Shown here: piece after piece, positions 3,509-19,196 of the stretch
Layout: each line of letters opens with the position of its first letter
Position numbering within the stretch: the first letter of the stretch is position 1
Assembly (NCBI GenBank): GCA_040755095.1
Contig: JBFMBH010000020.1
Location: forward strand, 1-40,091
Length of the DNA: 40,091 bases
DNA from: Thermodesulfobacteriota bacterium
GTDB lineage: Bacteria > Desulfobacterota > Desulfobulbia > Desulfobulbales > JBFMBH01
Direction: 5' to 3'
Notes under the pieces: model-generated
Seen by the model: only the letters and a program-made list of their open reading frames with translations
Told to the model about the DNA's origin: nothing
The model's database searches: none
Made by a program: the position numbers and the translations under genes

Positions 3509-4361
3509 CGGGAGCGGCTGGCGGCAGCTGGCCTGGAGTGGGCTCCTCTTCTCGGCCCCCGCAACCTGGGCGCCGGTGGCGGTGGGCCGCCGGCACCTCC
3601 TCTTGGCGGACGAGGCGGGGCCGGTCTTCGAGGTCAAGTGGTGGCCCGGCCGCCGGCGCCTGCAGCCGGAGAAGGAGCGGCAGCGGCTTCTGGCCGCATG
3701 GCGCCGGGCCAGGCGCCAGGCCGAGCCCTGGCCGTGGCCGCCGGCCTGGCGCGGCCAGGACCGCTGGCAGACCGCCGGCTTCGCCTGGCAGGACGGGACG
3801 CGGGCCGGCTGGGGCGGGGTGATCCTCTGCCATAAGACCAGGACCGCTCTCCTGGTGCAGTTTTTGACCCCGGCGGGGCAGCCGGCGCCATCGACCCTGG
3901 CGGCTCGCCTTCTCGCCTCGCTCTCGGTGGGCGATCGCGACCGCTCCCTGTGGAGCCTGTACGACATCCGGGCCGAGCTGCCGGCCGGCTGGATCCTGCG
4001 GCAGTCCCGGTTCGACGCCGGGGTCTTCCGGCTGCGCCTGGCCGCCGGCCGCCGCCACCTCTTCCTCTGGCGGTGGGGTCTGGCCGCCGAGCGGCTGGCC
4101 GCGGCCGGCGGCCTGGCCGCGTTTGCCGGCCAGGAGCTGGGGATTCCTGCTGCGGCCTGGCAGGGGTCGGATGGGGTCCTGGCCTGGCAACGGCCGCCCC
4201 GGCCCTGGTGGCAGCGCCTGCTCGACCGCCGTCCGGTACCGGCCCAGGCCCGCCTGTGGCAGCTGCCGGCGGCCGACCGCATCCTGGCGGCGCGCCTGGA
4301 TGGGCCCGACCTGCCACCCGCCGAATTTCTGTCCTTGTGCCAAGGCTATGGCCTCGTCTGA
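3489..4361 (+). CDS. Hypothetical protein, Trp/Arg-rich, upstream of a PqqD-like gene
   Basis: A 290-residue protein that I do not recognise. It is rich in Trp, Arg and Ala, has no signal peptide and no membrane segment, and shows repeated W-x-x-G/P-R patterns. The ATG at 3489 is chosen over the in-frame ATG at 3441 because it reduces overlap with the preceding gene to 20 bp and starts with a polar MTSYPGDG segment; 3441 remains possible. The end overlaps the PqqD-like gene by 14 bp, which implies translational coupling and a shared task. By position it may be the partner or substrate-handling protein of the PqqD-like domain, but nothing in the sequence proves that. Confidence 0.65.
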   Translation: MTSYPGDGSGWRQLAWSGLLFSAPATWAPVAVGRRHLLLADEAGPVFEVKWWPGRRRLQPEKERQRLLAAWRRARRQAEPWPWPPAWRGQDRWQTAGFAWQDGTRAGWGGVILCHKTRTALLVQFLTPAGQPAPSTLAARLLASLSVGDRDRSLWSLYDIRAELPAGWILRQSRFDAGVFRLRLAAGRRHLFLWRWGLAAERLAAAGGLAAFAGQELGIPAAAWQGSDGVLAWQRPPRPWWQRLLDRRPVPAQARLWQLPAADRILAARLDGPDLPPAEFLSLCQGYGLV

Positions 4362-4770
4362 AGCCGGCGGCCGCCCGCCGCCCGCCGGCCGCATGGCGGC
4401 CCTGGCCTGCGTGCCGGTGCGCAGCCTGGCCGTGGCCGAGGAGCGGCTGGCCGGCGGCCTGGTGCGCCTGTCCTACCCGGTGCAGCTCAGGCCCTGGCTG
4501 GCCAGGCTGGTCCGGGGCCTGGGGCTGGCCGGTTCCCCCCAGCGCCGGCCCCTGGATCTGGACCGTCTGGGCACCGCGGTCTGGGACCTGGTGGACGGCC
4601 ACCGCACGGTGGCCGAGGTGGCGGCGGCCTTTGCCCGCCAGCACCGGCTGGAGCCCCGGGAGGCGGAGCTGCCGGTGGCCGCCTTTCTCCGGGAGCTGGG
4701 CCGGCGCGGGATCATCGGCCTCGCGGACCGGGGAGGTGAGACGCCCCCGGCGCGCACTTGTCCGCGGTAG
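4348..4770 (+). CDS. PqqD-family peptide-chaperone-like protein
   Basis: A 140-residue protein. The C-terminal ~85 residues show the PqqD pattern: a 'RPLDLDRLGTAVWDLVDG' type strand-helix segment, then 'RTVAEVAAAFA' and a final helix with 'FLRELGRRGII', as in winged-helix PqqD/RRE domains that bind precursor peptides or act as adaptors. The N-terminal 20 residues are Gly/Pro-rich and probably disordered. The ATG at 4348 lies inside the end of the upstream gene (14-bp overlap). No radical SAM maturase or precursor peptide is adjacent, so the usual RiPP context is missing. The true partner may be the upstream protein or lie elsewhere. Nothing conserved follows until the hsdS remnant. Confidence 0.7.
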   Translation: MASSEAGGRPPPAGRMAALACVPVRSLAVAEERLAGGLVRLSYPVQLRPWLARLVRGLGLAGSPQRRPLDLDRLGTAVWDLVDGHRTVAEVAAAFARQHRLEPREAELPVAAFLRELGRRGIIGLADRGGETPPARTCPR

Positions 4771-4897: not shown

Positions 4898-4996
4898 GTG
4901 AGTCTCGCCACCTTGCGCGACGCGCTGTTGCCCAGGCGCATCTCCGGCGACCTGCGGGTGAAGGACGCGGAAAAGTTCATCGGGGGGGCTGTCTGA
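4898..4996 (+). pseudogene. hsdS: hsdS 3' remnant (type I restriction specificity subunit C-terminus)
   Basis: The frame ending at the TGA 4994-4996 encodes, from about 4898, a segment reading SLATLRDALLPRRISGDLRV then KDAEKF. This matches the conserved C-terminus of type I HsdS subunits, in which an (L/T)xxLRDxLLPxLxSGxLRV(x)DAE pattern ends the protein. Everything upstream (target recognition domains, and hsdM) is absent, so this is a 5'-deleted remnant. Its stop overlaps the next gene's start as TGATG, the usual coupling within hsd operons. The left boundary is approximate. It shows that the helicase gene that follows once lay inside a type I restriction-modification operon. Confidence 0.75.
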
Positions 4997-7900
4997 TGTC
5001 CACAGCCCTCGCATCCAAGGTCAGCTACTCGGCAACGTATGCGAGCGTATCCTGGCAAGGGCGCGCCGTTGACGATCGCGTGCGTTTTGCCGTTTTCCTC
5101 CGCGATGTTGTTCGGCCGCGAGTCGCCGATGCGGATTCGGGGTTCGAAGCTGATTTGCGAGGGTTGGCCACCACTGACATGTCCATTGATCAGGTCGAGC
5201 GCCTGCTTCGTGCCGTCCCTGATCCGGAGGGATGGGAAGTCGGTGAGGCGCTCGCGGAGTGTGCGCTCCAGAGCGATTCGGGCCGCGAGCTCCACTGGCC
5301 GTGGAACACGGTTCGTGATCGCCGGACGCCCCGAGCGAGCTTGCCAGGCACCGACCTCGTAGGGTTCTGCAGACTCGACGGCAGCATCTGGCTCGCGTTC
5401 GGCGAGGTCAAGACATCGTCCGAGGCAACGGCTCCTCCCAACGTGATGTATGGAGGTGACCGTGGAGCCGACGTTCGTCGTATCCTTGCGGGCGTGATGT
5501 TCCCTGCGCCGGCACCCGCCGAGGGCTGGGGACAACGCGTCGAGCGGACCATCTACGAAATCTGGCTGCGTCTGCTGCGGAAGCAGGGCTGGGAGGACCT
5601 CGACGGTGTTCAGAGCGCGGTGGCTCGACTGCGCGCCGAGCAGCGGGAAGGCGAGGCGACGTTTCTTGCCAAGGCAGAGCGGAACAAGGATGTACGCCCG
5701 GCATGGGATCTGATGTCACAGTACCACCTCGCGAAAGCAGCCGAGATTCTCGGTACCTATCTTGCTCAAGGACCTGTCGACGGCCACTACGACGTGCGCG
5801 AGCAACTCGAAGCGCAGTTCGACCGCGCGATCAGCACCGCCGCGAAAGGGCGACTGATGGAGCGTGAGACGCTGGCGCGGCTGCTTGGACGAACGGCGCG
5901 TACGCTCGCGGACAATAGCATCTGGATGGTGACCCGCGCAGTCAACAGCCGCGTCACAAAGTTCGTCGAATCCGTCATGGCAAGAAAGAGAAAGCAGCCG
6001 ATCTTCGAGATGCTGCCACCACAGCGGCGCACGCTTCGGGAGCAAGGTCTGCTTGGGTCGGGACACCGCTCGGTCGTGGTGAGCCTCCCGACATCGAGTG
6101 GCAAGACGTTCATTGCAGAGTTCCGCATTCTGCAGGCGTTGAACCAATTCGACCATGAGCGCGGCTGGGTCGCGTACCTCGCGCCCACACGTGCACTGGT
6201 CAACCAGCTTGCGCTACGGCTCCGTTGCGACTTCGTGCCGCTTGGGATCGTGGTGGAGAAGGTGAGCCCCGCGCTCGAGATCGATGGGCTGGAGGCAGAC
6301 ATGCTCACGGATCAGGACGCGAAGCGGCAATTCCGCGTCCTGGTCACGACGCCGGAGAAGCTGGATCTGATGCTCCGTAGCGAGTGGGAGACGAAGATCG
6401 GTCGCCCGCTCACACTGGTTGTCGTTGACGAAGCCCACGGCCTTGCGTCGCAGGCCCGCGGGCTGAAGCTGGAGCTGCTGCTTGCCACGATCAACCGCGA
6501 GTGCCGCTACGCGCAGTTCCTGCTCCTCACGCCGTTCGTCCGCAACGCCGCCGAGATCGCTCGGTGGCTCTCGCCCGACAGCAACAGGAACATCGAGCTC
6601 GGCGTCGACTGGAGCCCCAACGATCGCATCATCGCCATCGCCAAGCCTGTCCGGGGAACCAGGCGCGGTGACTTCGGCATTCGATTGGTCACGCGACATA
6701 CGTCGCGGAACACGCTGAGCATCCCCGAGGAGCTCGAGCTCGCGGATCGTCGTCCCTTGGGTCTCGCTTGGTCCGACGTATCAGGATCGCCTGGCAAGCT
6801 CGCAGCGGCCACGGCGCACCTGCTCCAGCGGCGAGGGACGGTCATCGTGCTCGTGGACAAGCCGCGCAACAGCTGGGGGATCGCGAACGCTTTCAAGGTC
6901 GAAGAGAACCGGGGCATCGTATCGAGCGGGGATCTCGCCCAGATCCAGCGCTTCCTCGAAGACGAGATGGGTACGGACTTCCCACTGACGACGCTCCTCG
7001 AATACGGGATCGGCGTCCATCACGCCGGGCTCTCGGAAGACACACGAACGCTTGTCGAGTGGATGACACAACAAGGATTGCTCAGGGCGCTCGTGGCCAC
7101 GACCACCATCGCCCAGGGGGTGAACTTCCCAGTCTCCGGCGTGGTGTTCGCGAGCCACCAGTACCCCTACGGCCAGGACATGCCCCCCGAGGACTTCTGG
7201 AACATCGCCGGCCGCACAGGGCGCGTCGACCAGGGCGACCTCGGGATCGTCGCGCTGGCCGGGCATGATGAGGCAAAGGCCAGGCAGCTCGAGACGTTCA
7301 TCGCACGGTCGGTTGGCTCGCTCAACTCGACCCTCGTCGACCTCGTTCAGCAGGTCGCGGCAAGTGGCGACCTGCTCCGGCTGGAGTCGCTCGCGTGGCA
7401 GCCGGGCTGGTCGTCGTTCCTCCAATACCTCGCCCACACCTATCGGCAGATCGGAAGCCATGAGCGCTTCGCTGCACAGGTCGAACAGGTGCTGCGCGGC
7501 ACTCTCGGCTTCCAGGCGCTCCGCAAGAGCCACAAGGGATGGGCCGACAGCCTTGTGCAGGGGGTCTACAACTACGCCGAGCGCATCAAGGGGCAGCCAC
7601 TCAAGCTTGTCGATGCGACAGGGTTCTCGTGGGAGTCCGTCTCGAACACGCTTGTCCGTCTCAATCAAGCGGGCGTGACCAGTGCGGTCTGGTCGCCGGA
7701 CCTGTTCACGTCACAACGCGCGAACTTGCAGCAGATGATGGGCATTCTGCTGCGGGTTCCCGAGCTGCGGGAGCCGCTTCGGGAAGTCACCGGCGGGACG
7801 CAGCCGGACGGGGACACGCTCGCTCGAATCATCTGTGACTGGGTGCAAGGCCGACCGCTTCCGGAGATGGCCACCAAGTACTTCAGGACGGCGGGCCGTG

Positions 7901-8307
7901 CAGGAGGGGACGGCTCGGACCCCGTCGATGCCATGACGCGATGCTGCCGAAGCATCTTCGGCCGCCTCACGCAGACGGCGTCCTGGGGCTTGGCGGCCCT
8001 GCAGTCGCTCACCGTCGGCGACACGCTCGAGTCGATGTCGGAAGATGACCAACGAACGCTCCGCAACTTGCCGGCTCGCGTCTACTACGGGGTCAACTCG
8101 GACGAAGCGGTAGCACTGCGCCTTCTCGGTGTGCCACGAACTGCCGCCACGCCACTGGCGACCGCTCTCGGAGTCACGGCGAGCGAGTCACTGCACGTCA
8201 TACGCAATCGGTTGCGTGCTTCGACCGTCGACACTTGGCGCCGTGCGCTTGGCGAGCGTGGAGCGAGCTACCACCGCGTGTGGACGATCATGGAGGGGAA
8301 AGGGTGA
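4996..8307 (+). CDS. Fused PD-(D/E)XK-like nuclease / Ski2-like helicase (HamAB-like, Hachiman-type defence)
   Basis: A 1103-residue protein. Residues ~115-140 carry GTDLVGF...[12 protein letters not shown], the D...E-x-K pattern of a PD-(D/E)XK nuclease (Asp120, Glu137, Lys139), close in style to the HamA/DUF1837 domain. The helicase part has TSSGKT (366-371), APTRAL (396-401), DEAH (478-481), HHAGL (675-679), [11 protein letters not shown] (702-712) and IAGRTGR (737-743), an order typical of Ski2-like superfamily 2 helicases such as HamB. Residues ~750-1103 are helical and unrecognised. Hachiman normally uses two genes, so a fusion is unusual, and the nuclease part seems shorter than a full HamA. 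The start at 4996 overlaps the hsdS stop; the end overlaps the hsdR start. Codon use (more TCG, CTC, CGT; less CTG/GCC dominance) differs from the flanks, which suggests transfer. Helicase sure; HamA link probable. Confidence 0.85.
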
Positions 8308-8592
8308 TGGCTTTCACCGAATCCGTCGTCGAACAGGCCGCCCTCGCGTGGCTGGAGGCGATCGGCTGGCGCATCGCCCACGGCCCCAGACCTCGCGCCG
8401 GACATGCCAGCGGCCGAGCGGCGCGACTACGGCGAGGTGGTGCTCGCCCAGCGGCTGCGCGATGCGTTGGCGCAGCTCAATCCCGCGTTGCCGCCCGACG
8501 CGCTGGAGGACGCCAAAGCTGACGCGGCGGTCGGTCGATCCCCCGCCGGCGGGGGCGTGGTCCCGGCGGCCGGATGCCGGTATCGGCGCTGA
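8307..8592 (+). pseudogene. hsdR: hsdR 5' remnant, frameshifted and truncated
   Basis: The ATG at 8307 overlaps the helicase stop (TGATG). The first 27 codons read [20 protein letters not shown] then WRIAHGP, the classic N-terminus of type I HsdR. An extra A at 8388 shifts the frame; removing it restores [20 protein letters not shown] and [15 protein letters not shown], also canonical HsdR sequence. Similarity stops after LEDA at about 8515, and the second frame ends at 8592. A full HsdR has about 800-1100 residues, so only the first ~70 remain. The nuclease and motor domains are lost, so no restriction activity is possible from this copy. Confidence 0.85.
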
Positions 8593-8603
8593 CCGGGTTC
8601 TTC

Positions 8604-8632
8604 TTGCCGAATCCAGGCAATTGGGGTATATG
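8604..8632 (+). promoter_or_regulatory. Sigma70-type promoter of the tRNA-Arg gene
   Basis: TTGCCG (8604-8609) and TATATG (8627-8632) are separated by 17 bp, placing transcription start around 8639, a few bases before the tRNA 5' end. TTGCC/GGCAA (8604-8608 and 8616-8620) also form a small inverted repeat within it. A good match in position and spacing. Confidence 0.65.
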
Positions 8633-8644
8633 ACTCGGATCCAT

Positions 8645-8721
8645 GCACTCGTAGCTCAGTTGGATAGAGCGCCGGACTACGAATCCGTAGGTCGGGGGTT
8701 CGAATCCCTCCGGGTGCACCA
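8645..8721 (+). tRNA. tRNA-Arg (anticodon ACG)
   Basis: A 77-nt cloverleaf with encoded CCA. The acceptor stem GCACTCG pairs with CGGGTGC (one T-G wobble), the D arm is GCTC/GAGC around AGTTGGATA, the anticodon loop is CTACGAA with anticodon ACG, and the T arm contains TTCGAAT. The outermost anticodon-stem pair is a C-T mismatch; the other four pairs hold. ACG is expected to be deaminated to ICG by TadA and to read CGU/CGC/CGA. It sits directly after the hsdR remnant, a typical boundary for integrated defence DNA, although no repeated tRNA 3' end (att copy) is evident in the window. Confidence 0.95.
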
Positions 8722-10796: not shown

Positions 10797-11813
10797 ATGG
10801 ACCATGATGGCGGTTACAAGCATCTTTTTTCCCACCGGGAGATGATCGCCGATCTTCTTGTCGGCTTCGTCCGGGAGGACTGGGTGGCCCAACTAGATCT
10901 TGCCACCCTGGAGCGGGTGAGCGGCAGCTATGTTGCCGACGACCTCCGGGAGCGGGAGGATGACCTCGTCTGGCGGGTGCGCTGGGGTGAGGAGTGGCTG
11001 TTCGTCTACCTGCTCATCGAATTCCAGTCGTCCGTGGACCGGTTCATGGCCGTCCGGATCATGGCCTACCTGGCGCTCTTGTATCAGGACATCATCCGGC
11101 AAGGCTGGCTGAGCACGGGCGGCCAGTTGCCGCCGGTGCTGCCGGTGGTACTGTACAACGGCGACCCTCGCTGGACCGCGGCCACCAACATCCGGGACCT
11201 CATCGTCCCGGTCCCAGGTGGCCTGGCGGCGTACCGGCCGGAGGTCCGCTACCTGCTCCTGGATGAAGGCCGCTACCAGGAGGCCGAGCTCGCCCCCTTG
11301 CGCAACCTGGTGGCAGCGTTGTTCCGCCTCGAGAACAGCCGAACCCCGGCGGACATCAGCCGGGTGCTGGAGAACCTCATCGCCTGGCTGGCAGCTCCCG
11401 CGCAAGCCAGCATCCGCCGGTCCTTCACCGTGTGGATGAGGCGGGTGCTGTTGCCTGGCCGCATGCCAGGGGCCATCATCCCGGAAGTCGGGGACCTTCA
11501 GGAGGTGAAGAGCATGCTTGCGGAACGTGTCAAGGAATGGACCAGGGAATGGCAGCGCCAGGGAATGGAGGAGGGCATGGCCCAGGGCATGGCCCAGGGC
11601 ATGGCCCAGGGCATGGCCCAGGGCATGGCCAAGGGCATGGCCAAGGGCATGGCCAAGGGCCAAGCCGTGATCCTGTTCCGGCAGGTGGAGCTGAAGTTTG
11701 GCCCGGCCTCAGCAGAGGTCCGGCAACGGCTGGAGACCGCCAGCCAGGAGGAGTTGGAGCGCTGGAGCGGCCGGATACTTACCGCCACCTCCTTGGAGGA
11801 GCTGTTCGGCTGA
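10797..11813 (+). CDS. Rpn-family recombination-promoting nuclease / PD-(D/E)XK 'transposase'
   Basis: A 338-residue protein of the Rpn (Transposase_31, PF04754-like) family, DNA nucleases that stimulate RecA-independent recombination and have recently been linked to phage defence. The N-terminus MDHDGGYKHLF and the block DDLVWRVRWGEEW...VYLLIEFQSS supply the family's PD-(D/E)XK signature (Asp56, Glu75-x-Gln77). Residues ~105-240 are the usual LPPVLPVVLYNG region. Near the C-terminus lie four GMAQ and three GMAK units encoded by a 12-bp tandem repeat, followed by a DUF4351-like tail (LEELFG). The start at 10797 has only a weak purine stretch upstream. It is flanked by near-identical direct repeats of the neighbouring kinase gene. 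Length and motifs look intact. Confidence 0.85.
   Translation: MDHDGGYKHLFSHREMIADLLVGFVREDWVAQLDLATLERVSGSYVADDLREREDDLVWRVRWGEEWLFVYLLIEFQSSVDRFMAVRIMAYLALLYQDIIRQGWLSTGGQLPPVLPVVLYNGDPRWTAATNIRDLIVPVPGGLAAYRPEVRYLLLDEGRYQEAELAPLRNLVAALFRLENSRTPADISRVLENLIAWLAAPAQASIRRSFTVWMRRVLLPGRMPGAIIPEVGDLQEVKSMLAERVKEWTREWQRQGMEEGMAQGMAQGMAQGMAQGMAKGMAKGMAKGQAVILFRQVELKFGPASAEVRQRLETASQEELERWSGRILTATSLEELFG
11574..11657 (+). repeat. 12-bp tandem repeat, seven units, inside the Rpn gene
   Basis: Four copies of GGCATGGCCCAG (11574-11621) are followed by three of GGCATGGCCAAG (11622-11657). The period is a multiple of three, so changes in copy number keep the frame and add or remove GMAQ/GMAK tetrapeptides in a helical linker. 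Confidence 0.95.
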
Positions 11814-12005: not shown

Positions 12006-15000
12006 TCAGTCGCCACCCCACTGCACCGCCCGGCTGGCGGTGCCTTCCGGCCCGGCGACGGTGACCGTCGCCGGTGCCGCCGTCGCGGACAGGCTCCGCA
12101 CCGTCAGCTCCCAGCGGCCCTGGGAGGCGTTCCAGGTCATGGGCCCGAAACCGGCCACCGTCAGAGCGGCATCGGCACCGTAGGCGCTGGTGGCCCGCAC
12201 CGACAGGGTCCGGCTCTGGTAGCGGGCCCGGGTGACGGCGATGGTGGTCACCGCCAGGTCGAAGGCCGGCATGGTCGCGGTCAGCTGGCCATCCGTGACC
12301 GTGATGACGATCCCGCGGGTGATACTGGCCTGGCTGGTGGTGGGGGTGCCGGCAAGGGTGCCGGTGGCGGGGTCGAAGCTGGCCCAGGCCGGCCGGTTGG
12401 CGATGGAGAAGGCCAGCGCATCGCCGTCCGGATCGCTGGCCAGGGGGGTGAAGGCATAGGGCTCGTTGACCCGGGCCGAGATGCCCGGGGTGCCGCTGAT
12501 GGCCGGCGCCCGGTTCGCGGCCGTGACAGTCACCTGCACGGTGCCGACGTTGGAGACCAGGCCGTTGTCGGCCACAAAGGTGAACTGGTCGTGCCCCGTG
12601 GCGCCCGGGTTGGGGGTGTAGGTGCAGGCGCCGGTGGCCGGATCGGTGATCTCGGCGTGGCCCAGGAGGCCGTCCGCCACCAGGCGGAAGGCCGGTGCCG
12701 GGCAGCCGCTGTCCGCAGCAGTGAGGACGCCCGCTACCGCCTGGTCCTCCAGGGTGGTCCAGGCGTCGTCCTGGGTCTGGGGCACGCTCGCCACCAGGGC
12801 ATACTTGACCAGGAGGGGCTGCCAGGCGCCAGCGACGACCGACCGGCCGGCGAGATAGACCGCGCAGCCGTCCAGGGCCAGGGCTGCCGGATAGTCCCAG
12901 TCGCCGCCATCGTAGAAGGCCAGCCAGGCCATGGTGCCTTCGCTGTCCAGCATCGCCAGGGCCAGGTCATACCGGTTATAGGCCCCCAGCGCCAGAAGGT
13001 TGCCGGCCGGGTCCATGGTCAGGCCGTAAAAGGGGCCCTCGCCGGTCTCCTGGCTGTAATCCCGGGCCCACAGCAGCTGGCCTTGGGCGTCGTATTTGAG
13101 GAGCCAGGGCGGTGCCGAGCTGAGGTTGTACTGCTGGGCCGCCACATAGACGTGGCCCGCCCCGTCGGTCACCACGGCGTTGCCCTGGGGGCCGCCCCAG
13201 GTCCCCACCCGGGCCTGGTGGCTCCACTGCTGCCGGCCAGCCTCGTCGCAGCTCATGGTGAGGATGGCCTGCTCGGCGCTGCCCGCACCGGCGGTGCCGG
13301 TAGCCACGACCGTGCCGGCCTGGTCCACAGCCAGGGCCAAGACCAGGTCGCTGCCGCCGCTGTCATGGGTGGTCGCCCACAACCCGGCGCCGTCGGGGCT
13401 GTATTTGAGCACCAGGGCATCGGCGTCGACGCCGTTGTGGCTGGCGCCGCCGGCATAGACGTTGCCCGCCCTGTCGACCCGCACCGCGAAGCCCATAAAG
13501 CCGCCGCCGGCCGGGCCGTAAAGGGCCTGCCACAGAACGCCCCCATCCGGGTCCCGTTTGCTGGTCTCGATCTGGCCGCTGGCCGTGGTGGCCACGGTGA
13601 CGATGTTGCCGGCTGAATCGATATCCACGCCGGTGAGGTAGTCGGCCGGCAGGGCCCAGAGCCGTTGCCCGCTGGGGGCGTACTTCTCCAGCCCCGAGCC
13701 GCCGGCCAGGACGACGTTGCCCTGGGGGGCCACCGCCACCCCCCGGGGGGCGAACAGGCTGCTCACCCCGGTCTGGCGCCAGGCCGTTTCCACGGCCGCC
13801 ACCCTGAGGTCGAAGGCGGGCAGGGTGGCCGTGGCCTGGCCGTCGCTCACCGTGATGACGATGCCTGCTGTGGTGCCCAGGTCGGCCATCCCCGGCGCTC
13901 CCGACAGGAGCCCGCTGTCCGCCGCCAGCGTGGCCCAGGCCGGCAGGTTGGCCGCCGCAAAGACCAGGGGATCGCCATCCACATCCGTGGCCGCGACCTT
14001 CGACTGGAACGGATGGCCGACCTTGGCCACCGTGGCCGGCCCGCCCCGGAAGACCGGCGGGTCGTTGACCGGCGTCACCTCCAGGGAGACGAAGGCCGGG
14101 TTGGAGAGGCCGAAGCCGTTGTCCGCCTGGACCTGGAAGCTGTCGCTGCCCGAAAAATCCGGCGCCGGGGTGTAGGTGAAGGCGCCGGTAGCGGCATCGT
14201 CCAGGATCACGGTGCCGTGGCTGGCCTGGCCGGTCACGGCGAAGGTGAGCGGCAGGCCGGAGGGGTCCTCGGCCAGCAGCTCGCCCTGGATGGGGGTGTC
14301 TTCGGCCAGCACCAGGGTCTGGTTCAGGGCCGTCGGCGGCGGGTAGACCACCGTCAGGTCGAGCTCCAGGTGATCGGCCAGGCCATGGGCGTCCCTGGCC
14401 TCGATGACCATCCGGTAGGTGCCCACGGTAGCGCACTGACCGGTGATCCGGCCGCTGGCCGGATCCAGGGTCAGGCCGGGCGGCAGGGCCCCGGCCACCA
14501 CCTGCCAGAGCACCGCCGCGCTGCCGCAGCCTACGGTCAGGCTGGCCTGCCAGGGCTGGCCGGCGCTGATGGCGGCCAGGGCCGGCGGCGCGATGCGCGG
14601 GCCCTGGTTGGCGTACTTCCTGATCCCATACCAGGAATAGCTGCGGTACAGGACATAGCCGTTGCCGCAGCTGTCCAGGGCCATGGCCTGGGGTATCTGG
14701 CCGGCGGCGTCGGCCTGCCACTGGCGGCTGCCGTCGCCCGCCGCCAGGGCCGCGGCTACCGAGGAATCGCTGAAGAAGAGGCGGCCCCGGTCATCGGCGG
14801 CCACCGCCCGGAAGGGGTCGCCGTTGTCGCTGCTGCCGGCGAAATAGTCCCACCGGAGCTGACCGCTGGCATCGAACCCCGCCAGGAAGAAGTGGCCGCC
14901 GTAGCGGGTGCGGCCGGCGACGCCGATCTCCCCGCTGGGTGCCACGGCCACGTTTCTGGCCTCGGCCACAAAGGAGCGCCGGGACCACAGGCAGCTGCCG

Positions 15001-18000
15001 TCCGGCGCAAACCGACTCAGCAGGATGCGGCCGGTGCCGAAGGCGGTGCCCACCACGATCACCGCGCCGCCGGGATCGAGGGCGAGGTCGTTGCCCAGGC
15101 CTGGCCGCAGATCCCGCCACAGCTCGTTGCCGTCCCGGTCCAGCTTGACGGTGAGGGCTTCGCCGCCGGCGGCGCCCAGGGCCGAGCCAACGGCGTAGAT
15201 GTTGCCCTCGCCATCCACCGCCACCCCCCGCAGGCCGGGACTCAGCACGCCGCCCGGCCGGGGCAGGAGCGGCCGGGACCAGAGCACCTGGCCGGAAGGA
15301 TCAAGCTTCACCACCAGGAAGTCGCTGTCACTGCCGCCCACGGCCACCACATGGCCTTCCGGGTCCAGCGCCAGATCCGTGAGCCGGGAGGAGGCACCCA
15401 TCGGCACCACCGTTGTCCACAGGACGCTGCCGTCTGCGGCCAATCTGGTCACCGCGCCGTGGGACTGGCTGGTCACCGCTCCGGCCACATAGAGGGCACC
15501 GCCGGCATCCACGACGAGGCCAGTGCTCTCCCCGGGCAGGAAGGTGCCCAGCAGCTCGGCGTGCATGGCGACCGGGATGACGAGGGCGGCCTGGGCCGTG
15601 GCGCCGGCAGCATCAGTCACCGTCACCTGGAAGCTGGAGCTGGTGCCGGCAGCGGCACTGGGAAGGGTGCCGGCGAGGCGGCCGGAGTCCGGGTCCAGGC
15701 TGAGGCCGGCCGGCAGGCTGCCGCCGGCCAGCTGCCAGGTGTAGGGCGGCTGGCCGTAGCGGGCGGTGAGGGTGTGCTGGTAGCCGGCGCCGGCGGTGCC
15801 GGCCGGCAGTGGCAGGCCGGTCATCTCCAGGACGCCGGGCTGGCGGTCGAAGGTCAGCAGATGGGCGTACGGTCCGGCAGCGGCCACCTGCAGCCGGCCG
15901 GTCCGGTCTTCGCAAAGGGCGGTGGCGGTCTCGTCATAGCCGGCCAGGTCCCGGCGCTGGCCGCCCAGGAGCTGGCCATCCCGGTCGTAGGCCAGGAGGA
16001 AGAGATCCTCGCCGCGGCTGCTGCCGCTCTTGCCGGCCACCAGGACCGCATCGTCGCTGCCGGCGGCCACGTCCATGGCCATGTCGTTGCCGCCGCTGTC
16101 GTACGTCGCGGCCCAGAGCACCTGGCCTGCGGCCGACAGCTTGACGGTCAACAGGTCCGCAACCGCCCCCCGGGTCTGGTAGCCGGTGGCATAGGCATCG
16201 CCCCAGCGGTCGATGGCGATGGCCAGGCCGTATTCGTTGCCGTCGCCGTCGTACGTTTGGCTCCATTGGAGGACGCCGCCGGTGTCGAGCCTGGCCACCA
16301 GGAGGTCGGCGCCGGTGTTGCCGTTGGCGGCCCGGCCGGTCACCCATACCCCGCCCTGGCCGTCCAGGGCCACGCCGAAGCCCTGGTCCTCCAGGCCCGC
16401 CGAGTCCAGGGTCTGCTGCCAGGCCAGGACGCCATCGCCGGCCAGCTTGATGAGGGCAAGGTTGCCGGCCAGGGTGCCTGCCACGTAGGCGGCACCGGTG
16501 GCATCCACGGCAATGCCGTGGCCGAAATCCTGGACGCCGGGGGAGGATGCATAGGCCCATTGCAGCCGGCCGGCCGGATCGTGCTTGCGCACCAGAAGCT
16601 GCCGGGAGTAGGCCTGCAGATCCTGCCAGCCGGCCACGAGCACGCTGCCGTCCGGGGCCAGGGCCAGCCCCTCGGCGCACTCGCTCTTTCCCACCGGGCC
16701 GTTGTACCGGTCTTGCCAGAGCACCTGCCCCGCAGAATCGAGCTTCACCACCTGCCAATCCAGGCCGGTGTCGGTCTCTTGGCAGCCGGCCAGATAGCGG
16801 TTGCCGGCGGCATCCACCACGAGATCGTTGATCTGGCTCATGCCGGCCGGGGAGAGGGTGCGCTCCAGGAGCGGCATGGCCAGATCCTGGTAGACCGTGA
16901 GTGTGTACTCCCGGCTGACCACGGTGCCGAAGCCTTCCCCGACCGTGACCGTGAAGGGGAAGGTCCCCGGGCGGGTGGGGATGCCGCTGATGCTCGCCCG
17001 GGAGCTGGAGCCGGCCAAGGACAGGCCGTCCGGCAGGCGGCCGGCGGTGATCGTCCAGGTGTAGGGCGTGCGGCCGCCGCTGGCCAGGATCTCCAGATTG
17101 GCCGGCTGGCCCGCCGGCAGATGGAAAAGCCGGTCGGTGGCGAGGGAAAAGGGCGGCGAGACGATGGTCTCGAAGGCCACGGTGCTGCCCTGGTCGCTGA
17201 ACACGAAATCGAAGCGCTCGCTGGAGCTGGTGGCGGTAAAAAGCCCGGTAAACACCCCGTCCCCGGCCAGGGCGTCGCCCCCCTGGCCGTCATCCGCCAG
17301 CCCGATGGCCGAGCCGCCCGCGGTCAGGACCGTGACCTCGCCGGTCGCAGCGCCGCAGGACAGGCTCAAGGCCGACAGGGCATACTGGCGGCCGGCAACC
17401 GGGGCGGCCGGGACATCCAGGACCGCGTGCACCGGATCCTCCGGGCAGACCAGGGCGTTGGCGGCATTGACCCGCCGGCCGGTGACGCTCCGGCCGGCCA
17501 GGGCCGGGGTCGGGTCGCCGGTGGCCAGGATGCGGTTCCTGATCGCCAGCCACCCCAGCTGTCCGGCCTCGGTCCACACCCCCCGGGCCGCGGCGCACTC
17601 GGCCGGGGTCAGAGAGATGCCGTCGCTGCAGCCGGCGGGCGCCGGCGTCCAGCTGCCGCCGGCTGCGGCACAGGCGCCGGCAGCAGCCAGTCCCGGCAGG
17701 GAGCAGGTGCCGGCGATCCGGGGCGAGGCCGCCGCCAGGAGCGCGGCCAGGCCGGCAACATGGGGGGTGGCCATGGAGGTGCCGGACAGATGGCGGTAGC
17801 CGCTGGGGTCGGACAGAAGCCCGGAAAGCTGCGGCACGCTGGACAGGATATTCACCCCCGGTGCGCCCACATCCACCGAGCGCCGGCCATGGTTCGAGAA
17901 CCAGGCCAACTGGTCGTCGTGGTCCAGGGCGGCCACGGTCAGCACGTTGGGGTTGTCGTAGCTGGCCGGCCAGTCGGGCCTGGCCTCCAGGTCATGGGCG

Positions 18001-19085
18001 TCGTTGCCGGCAGCGGCGATGAAGAGGATGCCCTGTTCCTGGTGCAGCCCGATCATGGCCTGAAACGACGCGGAAGCACCGCCGCCGCCCCAGCTGTTGC
18101 TGGTGGCCACCACCGGCTCCCGCTCCGCCATGGCCAGTACGTACTCCATGCACTCCTCGGCATCGCTGATGGCCCCGTAGCCGTCCTGGCCCAGGAACTT
18201 GCAGCCCAGGAGCCGGACCTGCCAGTTGACGCCGGTCACCCCGAGGCCGTTGTTGCCGGCCGCGCCGATGGTGCCGGCGCAGTGGGTGCCGTGGCCATGG
18301 TCGTCCATGAGGTCGCCGGTGCCGGTGATGGCGTTGATGCCGTGGAGATCGTCGGCATAGCCGTTCTCGTCGTCATCGTCCTTCAGATCGTTCTGCCAGG
18401 CCGGGTTGGGCGTGACCCCGCCGGCCAGGAAACGGCTCTGCTCCGCCCGGTCCTCGTCCACCAGGCCGTCGCCGTCGTCATCCACCCCGCATAGGCCCGG
18501 GCAGCCGTCGCCGTTGGCATCTCCCTCCGCTTCCCGGTCGTTGGTCCACAGGTTTGCCGCCAGGTCCTCGTGGCCGATGTCGATCCCGGTGTCGATCACC
18601 GCCACGATCACCCCCGGATCGCCGGTTTCGACCGACCAGGCCCCGGTGGCCCGGATGTCCCGGCCGGCCGTGCCGCCGGTCTGACCGCTGTTGCGTAAGC
18701 CCCACAGCTCCGGGAAGAGGGGATCGTCCGGGATCACCTCCAGGGCGTGGACGAGATAGTTGGGCTCGGCGTATTCGATCTCCGGATCCTGGCGCAGCTC
18801 CGCCAGGGCGGTCCGGACATCGACCCCCGGCGCCAGCCGCACCCTCTCCACCCCCAGCCTTTTGAGCCCGCGGATCCTGGTGAGCCCCTTCTGCCGCCTC
18901 TTCTTCTCCTGGTCCTTCTTCGGGAGCTTCTGGTGATACTTGACCAGCAGCTCCCCCGGGACATGGGGGCGATCACCGGGAGCAGACCGGTGATCGATCA
19001 CCGCCCCAGCCGGGGCGGGCAGAAGAATGGCAACGGTGACGAGCAGCGCAAGCAGGAGGCGGCAGACAAGGCCGGAGCGGGGCAT
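12006..19085 (-). CDS. Giant secreted subtilisin-like protease with SBBP-type propeller repeats and Ig-like domains
   Basis: A 2359-residue exoprotein started at ATG 19085 (GAGGGAGA upstream). A signal peptide (1-28) is followed by a fervidolysin-like propeptide (~48-120) and an S8 catalytic domain with Asp165 (AVIDTG), His265 (HGHGTH), Asn361 (AAAGN) and Ser437 ([13 protein letters not shown]). A Ca-binding-like DDDGDGLVD loop lies at ~202-210. Downstream, many repeats of the style 'VDAAGNxYLAG...[11 protein letters not shown]' form SBBP-type beta-propellers, alternating with putative Ig (He_PIG-like, '[20 protein letters not shown]') and cadherin-like '[14 protein letters not shown]' domains. 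No sorting anchor is obvious at the C-terminus. It probably degrades extracellular protein while the repeats bind surfaces or polymers. The triad is complete, so it is likely active. The long plus-strand ORF opposite it is a shadow. Confidence 0.92.
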
Positions 19086-19118
19086 GCTGATCTCCCTCGT
19101 TTGGTGAGCACAGTTGCG

Positions 19119-19134
19119 CGGCCAGCGCTGGCCG
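19119..19134. promoter_or_regulatory. 16-bp perfect palindrome in the protease leader
   Basis: CGGCCAGCGCTGGCCG lies between the predicted transcription start (~19161) and the ATG (19085) of the protease gene, where an operator could act. Its 12-bp core GCCAGCGCTGGC recurs just after the ABC permease stop (26910-26921). Function is not shown. Confidence 0.4.
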
Positions 19135-19167
19135 ATGGGGAAAGGGCGAACAAAGGACCAGGGCCGC

Positions 19168-19196
19168 ACTATACTGGCCGGTCGGGGAAGACCCAA
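19168..19196 (-). promoter_or_regulatory. Sigma70-type promoter of the protease gene
   Basis: Read on the minus strand, TTGGGT (19196-19191) and TATAGT (19173-19168) are separated by 17 bp, giving a start near 19161 and a leader of about 76 nt to the ATG. Hexamers and spacing fit; no other candidate is seen in the gap. Confidence 0.55.

Follow-up and report, generated by a model that had tools for sequence, protein, structure and literature searches.

A probable remnant of a type I restriction-modification operon in a Thermodesulfobacteriota bacterium, with a HamA/HamB-like gene pair joined by a deletion

Organization of the locus

The window, i.e. the whole stretch of 40,091 nucleotides that was analysed (contig JBFMBH010000020.1, assembly GCA_040755095.1, Thermodesulfobacteriota bacterium), contains the following features:

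4898..4996, + strand, C-terminal scrap of hsdS, the last ~30 residues and the stop codon (PADLOC Specificity_I, tblastn)
4996..5457, + strand, remnant of PDC-M23A, HamA-like nuclease (PADLOC, alignment, tblastn break in every relative)
5452..5460, + strand, deletion joint (both edges compared in relatives)
5455..8307, + strand, PDC-M23B, HamB-like Ski2-type helicase, to its stop codon (PADLOC, Pfam, PDB)
8307..8517, + strand, N-terminal scrap of hsdR, ~70 residues, frameshifted and truncated (two frames matching HsdR of the relative L001)

The central frame (4996-8307, +) is uninterrupted and comprises 1103 codons (1103 amino acids). At both ends it shares a TGATG overlap with its neighbour: the stop codon of the hsdS scrap overlaps the start of the central frame at 4994-4998, and the stop codon of the central frame overlaps the start of the hsdR scrap at 8305-8309. 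Both junctions had been noticed in a preliminary description of this DNA and are borne out. The same description regarded the central gene as the only whole gene at this site, which it is not. Inside the frame, one gene has lost its 3' part and the following gene its 5' part; the frame is 638 bp short in comparison to L001 (640 bp to L005; 641 bp to L012) and is incomplete in comparison to every relative found.

In the PADLOC analysis, the central frame matched positions 6-154 of 263 of the model PDC-M23A (E 1e-46), directly followed by positions 110-1059 of 1060 of PDC-M23B (1290 bits). These very strong matches are not due to chance, and neither part reaches the full length of its model. PDC-M23 is a predicted candidate system, and no paper naming it was found in a literature search.

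The C-terminus of HsdS (4901-4993) matched the last ~30 positions of the Specificity_I models (best E 1.3e-7) and showed 50% identity to HsdS of the locus L003 in tblastn. The HsdR scrap is readable only across two frames, from 8313 to 8387 (76% identity to L001) and then in the +1 frame up to 8514, which match residues 4-28 and 16-70 of HsdR of L001. It is therefore frameshifted, near position 8388, as well as truncated; the homology to HsdR stops at ~8517, and the remainder of the frame, up to 8592, does not belong to HsdR. A whole hsdM-hsdS-hsdR operon is thus not present at this site: all that remains is ~30 codons of hsdS and ~70 codons of hsdR, as the earlier claim of deleted flanks implied, and hsdM is missing from its expected place. 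With the L001 proteins as queries, no further match to hsdR or hsdS was obtained in the genome, and the body of hsdR was not found.

Homologous loci carry two separate genes

Eighteen homologous loci were compared (14 from the genome collection, two from IMG/VR and two from the phylum of the window's host). In all of them the counterpart of the central frame consists of two separate genes, A and B. In tblastn the fused protein matched two separate places in each of the 18 loci, which meet at around residue 153-154 of the fused protein (range 149-163) and lie roughly 600-710 bp apart. In loci with readable ends, A comprises ~264 and B ~1055 codons, and B usually starts at the stop codon of A. 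These genes represent PDC-M23A and PDC-M23B, and the intact relatives cover both models nearly at full length (A positions 6-260; B from position 4); the window has only shortened versions of A and B, fused to each other. Furthermore, two distant relatives of the helicase on Ensifer and Rhizobium plasmids (~30% identity) are preceded by a separate, overlapping gene of ~285 codons. A single-chain HamAB as a natural architecture, as which the central gene had initially been described, was rejected, since no second fused case exists among the 18 loci and both plasmid relatives possess two genes; the fusion is a deletion product.

The two plasmid loci (L048 and L049) are located on conjugative plasmids, and in Rhizobium a CBASS locus adjoins. 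Carriage of the pair by phages was also considered and rejected; phages gave only generic helicase matches, and A matched on two IMG/VR contigs. In the phylum of the window's host the pair is uncommon (3 of 395 genomes, the host's own genome counted).

Intact operons of the order hsdM-hsdS-A-B-hsdR, for which the preliminary description had proposed to search, are present in L007 (Nitrospirae) and in L043 (a one-contig genome of the same phylum as the window). In both, A starts within the hsdS stop codon. L042 shows the order hsdM-A-B-hsdR, and L008, L009 and L013 show hsdS-A-B. In L001 and L002, hsdM, hsdS, two Abi_C genes and hsdR are followed by A-B, and in the remaining loci A-B lies away from hsd genes. 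The position between hsdS and hsdR that had been assumed for the ancestral helicase gene is consequently confirmed by L007 and L043, but it was occupied by two genes, A and B, and not by one.

In the sister locus L003, gene A (8001-8674) is broken by two small frameshifts and has no recognisable start, and the frame of B is open. L003 represents a second case in which the nuclease was lost and the helicase was left standing.

The deletion joint and the direction of the fusion

In comparison to L001, residues 157-264 of A (the last 108) and residues 1-104 of B are lost. The sequence at the joint is TATGGAGGT|GACCGT. At the corresponding places, the relatives have GGCGGC|AGCGGG on the A side and CTG|GGTGACCGT on the B side, and the ends of the deletion have ~3 bases in common.

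In a maximum likelihood tree of the helicase part, the window is placed beside L003 and L005 (support 96/96), and these three are nested among L001, L002, L011 and L012, which are all two-gene loci. The protein thus descends from within the PDC-M23 family, and the fusion is derived.

One in three random deletions leaves the joined frames in phase, and the open frame is therefore not strong evidence of selection. The remnant of A is as well conserved as intact pairs are (71% identity between the window and L001; 64% between L012 and L001). In the helicase part, four of 300 otherwise invariant positions are changed. Within the clade, 15 of 468 conserved positions are changed in the window versus 8 of 461 in L012, which is no clear excess, and relaxed selection in the helicase was discarded as an explanation. 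This normal conservation of both parts suggests a recent deletion, but the same pattern would be expected of a fusion on which selection still acts. Open frame and normal conservation together mean only that the deletion is recent or was not counter-selected. The earlier conclusion that the helicase-nuclease was kept while the restriction-modification system was lost, and hence has an independent value, does not follow, because the module itself is damaged.

The nuclease and helicase parts

Residues 1-154 of the fused protein align with residues 4-156 of the 264 residues of A of L001. The residues D120, E137 and K139 are retained, and their equivalents D122, E139 and K141 are invariant in intact A proteins. 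Two strands and five helices disappeared with the lost part of A, as did 19 of its 57 invariant residues. Among the lost invariant residues are a glutamine shortly after the E-x-K strand and an R-D-T segment, and the lost region approximately corresponds to one of the three contacts of HamA with HamB (residues 159-199 of E. coli HamA; PMC12278908). The nuclease half-domain in the window would hardly be able to fold or dock. A structure model of the fused protein reached a mean pLDDT of only 62, with low values in the helicase core too, and is too poor to judge folding.

The relationship of A to HamA was assessed with intact proteins. For intact A, an AlphaFold model (pLDDT 80) gave HamA (8vxy_A) as the sole PDB match below E 1e-3 (E 4e-6; probability 1.00; TM 0.53/0.56). 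Intact A thus shows a HamA-like fold with the D...E-x-K residues, and the copy in the window lacks part of this fold. On the other hand, four intact A proteins gave no Pfam match at all, to DUF1837 or otherwise, and matches to HamA models were marginal (E 0.003-0.5; PADLOC HamA E 0.003-0.004 in two of five). By the DUF1837 test, A is not a HamA. The part of the fused protein that carries D120, E137 and K139 stems from a protein with a fold model matching HamA, and in this respect the preliminary description was right.

The helicase part starts at residue 105 (L001 numbering), and the first 104 residues are gone. The motifs PTSSGKT, DEAH and NIAGRTGR are retained, and the Pfam domains DEAD and Helicase_C were detected. 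Similarity to HamB was clear in PADLOC (up to 187 bits) and in the PDB (8vx9_B, E 4e-24), and the protein is a Ski2-like helicase of the HamB type known from Hachiman.

Comparison to known defence systems

The reference system for Hachiman consists of HamA and HamB of E. coli ECOR31 (PDB 8VX9/8VXY). HamB senses damaged DNA and releases HamA, which then degrades DNA, and defence is abolished by the loss of either activity or of the helix-loop-helix contacts of HamA (PMC12278908). PDC-M23 resembles this system in the combination of a nuclease with a Ski2-like helicase and in the overlapping gene pair of the intact relatives; the two separate genes of Hachiman are found in all relatives and not in the window. 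It differs in that A has no DUF1837 match and is only marginally similar to HamA models, and in that the intact pair often lies in or beside type I restriction-modification operons. Since the fold of A best matches HamA and B is HamB-like, intact PDC-M23 pairs probably work like Hachiman by analogy; as A fails the DUF1837 test, it is not claimed that they are Hachiman.

AbpAB is a probable Hachiman variant that also combines a nuclease and a Ski2-like helicase (PMC12278908). In this system AbpA bears a further nuclease domain at its N-terminus, its HamA-like part is inactive, and there are still two genes. With regard to gene order, PDC-M23 resembles TgvAB, a two-gene defence cassette embedded in a type I restriction-modification operon on VPI-2 of V. 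cholerae (PMC11411939). TgvAB is a type IV system, for which both proteins are needed (PMC11411939), and its GmrSD-like proteins are unrelated to HamA and HamB. PDC-M23 hence represents a second kind of two-gene cassette in type I restriction-modification operons besides TgvAB, and the HamA/HamB-like pair is documented here inside intact hsdM-hsdS-A-B-hsdR operons, recurring across several phyla.

Interpretation of the locus

The region 4898-8517 is most probably (probability about 0.85) the remnant of a decaying type I restriction-modification operon, whose two-gene HamA/HamB-like cassette was joined by a deletion of ~640 bp. The ancestor was a type I operon with PDC-M23A and PDC-M23B between hsdS and hsdR. 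The ~640-bp deletion cut off the 3' part of A together with the 5' part of B and left both in one frame; through other losses hsdM disappeared from its expected place, and hsdS and hsdR were almost completely removed. The two-gene ancestry, the deletion and the operon context are directly seen in the comparison with the relatives. In the intact pair, as predicted from homology, the helicase B would sense abnormal DNA and release or activate the nuclease A, and the DNA would be degraded. As the remainder of the nuclease fold has been lost, the product encoded in the window most likely does not act as a nuclease effector and is most likely inactive in defence. At best it is a helicase without an effector, and a residual role as a helicase is possible.

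Retention as a helicase-only protein for another use, e.g. in repair, in which case the remnant of the nuclease would be carried along as a passenger, is unlikely. From residue 105 (L001 numbering) onwards the helicase is intact and normally conserved, and the sister locus L003 likewise combines a broken A with an open frame of B. There are no more than two such cases, each from a draft genome, and the loss of the 104 N-terminal helicase residues and the lack of a promoter match at the site (see below) also argue against it.

Still less probable is a working single-chain HamAB, in which the shortened nuclease, tethered to the helicase, would still act. Although the frame is open, D120, E137, K139 and all helicase motifs are kept and no relaxed evolution was seen, the nuclease has lost 108 of its 264 residues and the helicase 104, including invariant residues and core strands, and the 18 loci provide no second fused case. 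It is equally doubtful that a nuclease core of ~154 residues in cis with a HamB-like helicase forms a one-chain nuclease triggered by DNA damage. If a truncated fusion of this kind worked, it would show how little of HamA suffices.

That the host possesses full A and B genes, and that ~640 bp were merely dropped from its draft assembly of 255 contigs, is very improbable: the joint ends have only ~3 bases in common, which are too few for repeats to mislead an assembler, a genome search for the missing 3' part of A, done without a positive control, gave no match elsewhere, and the neighbouring hsd genes are likewise truncated.

With the remnant of a two-gene cassette as the preferred explanation, the claimed single-chain Hachiman is struck off, and the locus demonstrates that a deletion in a two-gene locus can mimic a domain fusion as long as a single genome is considered.

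Neighbourhood of the remnant

A search around the site revealed no sigma-70-like promoter. Directly upstream and on the same strand, a PqqD-like protein is encoded (4123-4770, +; Pfam E 3e-9). Because the hsd promoter was lost, expression of the remnant would need the region of this gene or a new promoter.

A tRNA-Arg gene (anticodon ACG; 8645-8721, +) follows the hsdR scrap at a distance of ~130 bp and could mark an integration site. An island at this tRNA with an att duplication was considered and rejected, as neither a second tRNA 3' end in the window nor telling flank repeats were found. A little further downstream of the remnant, a YhgA-like putative transposase is encoded (10797-11813, +; Transposase_31, E 2.4e-29). 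In addition, the plus-strand frame at 13665-18494 (1609 codons), which gave no Pfam match, is overlapped in GC-rich DNA by a frame of 2396 codons on the minus strand (12006-19196).
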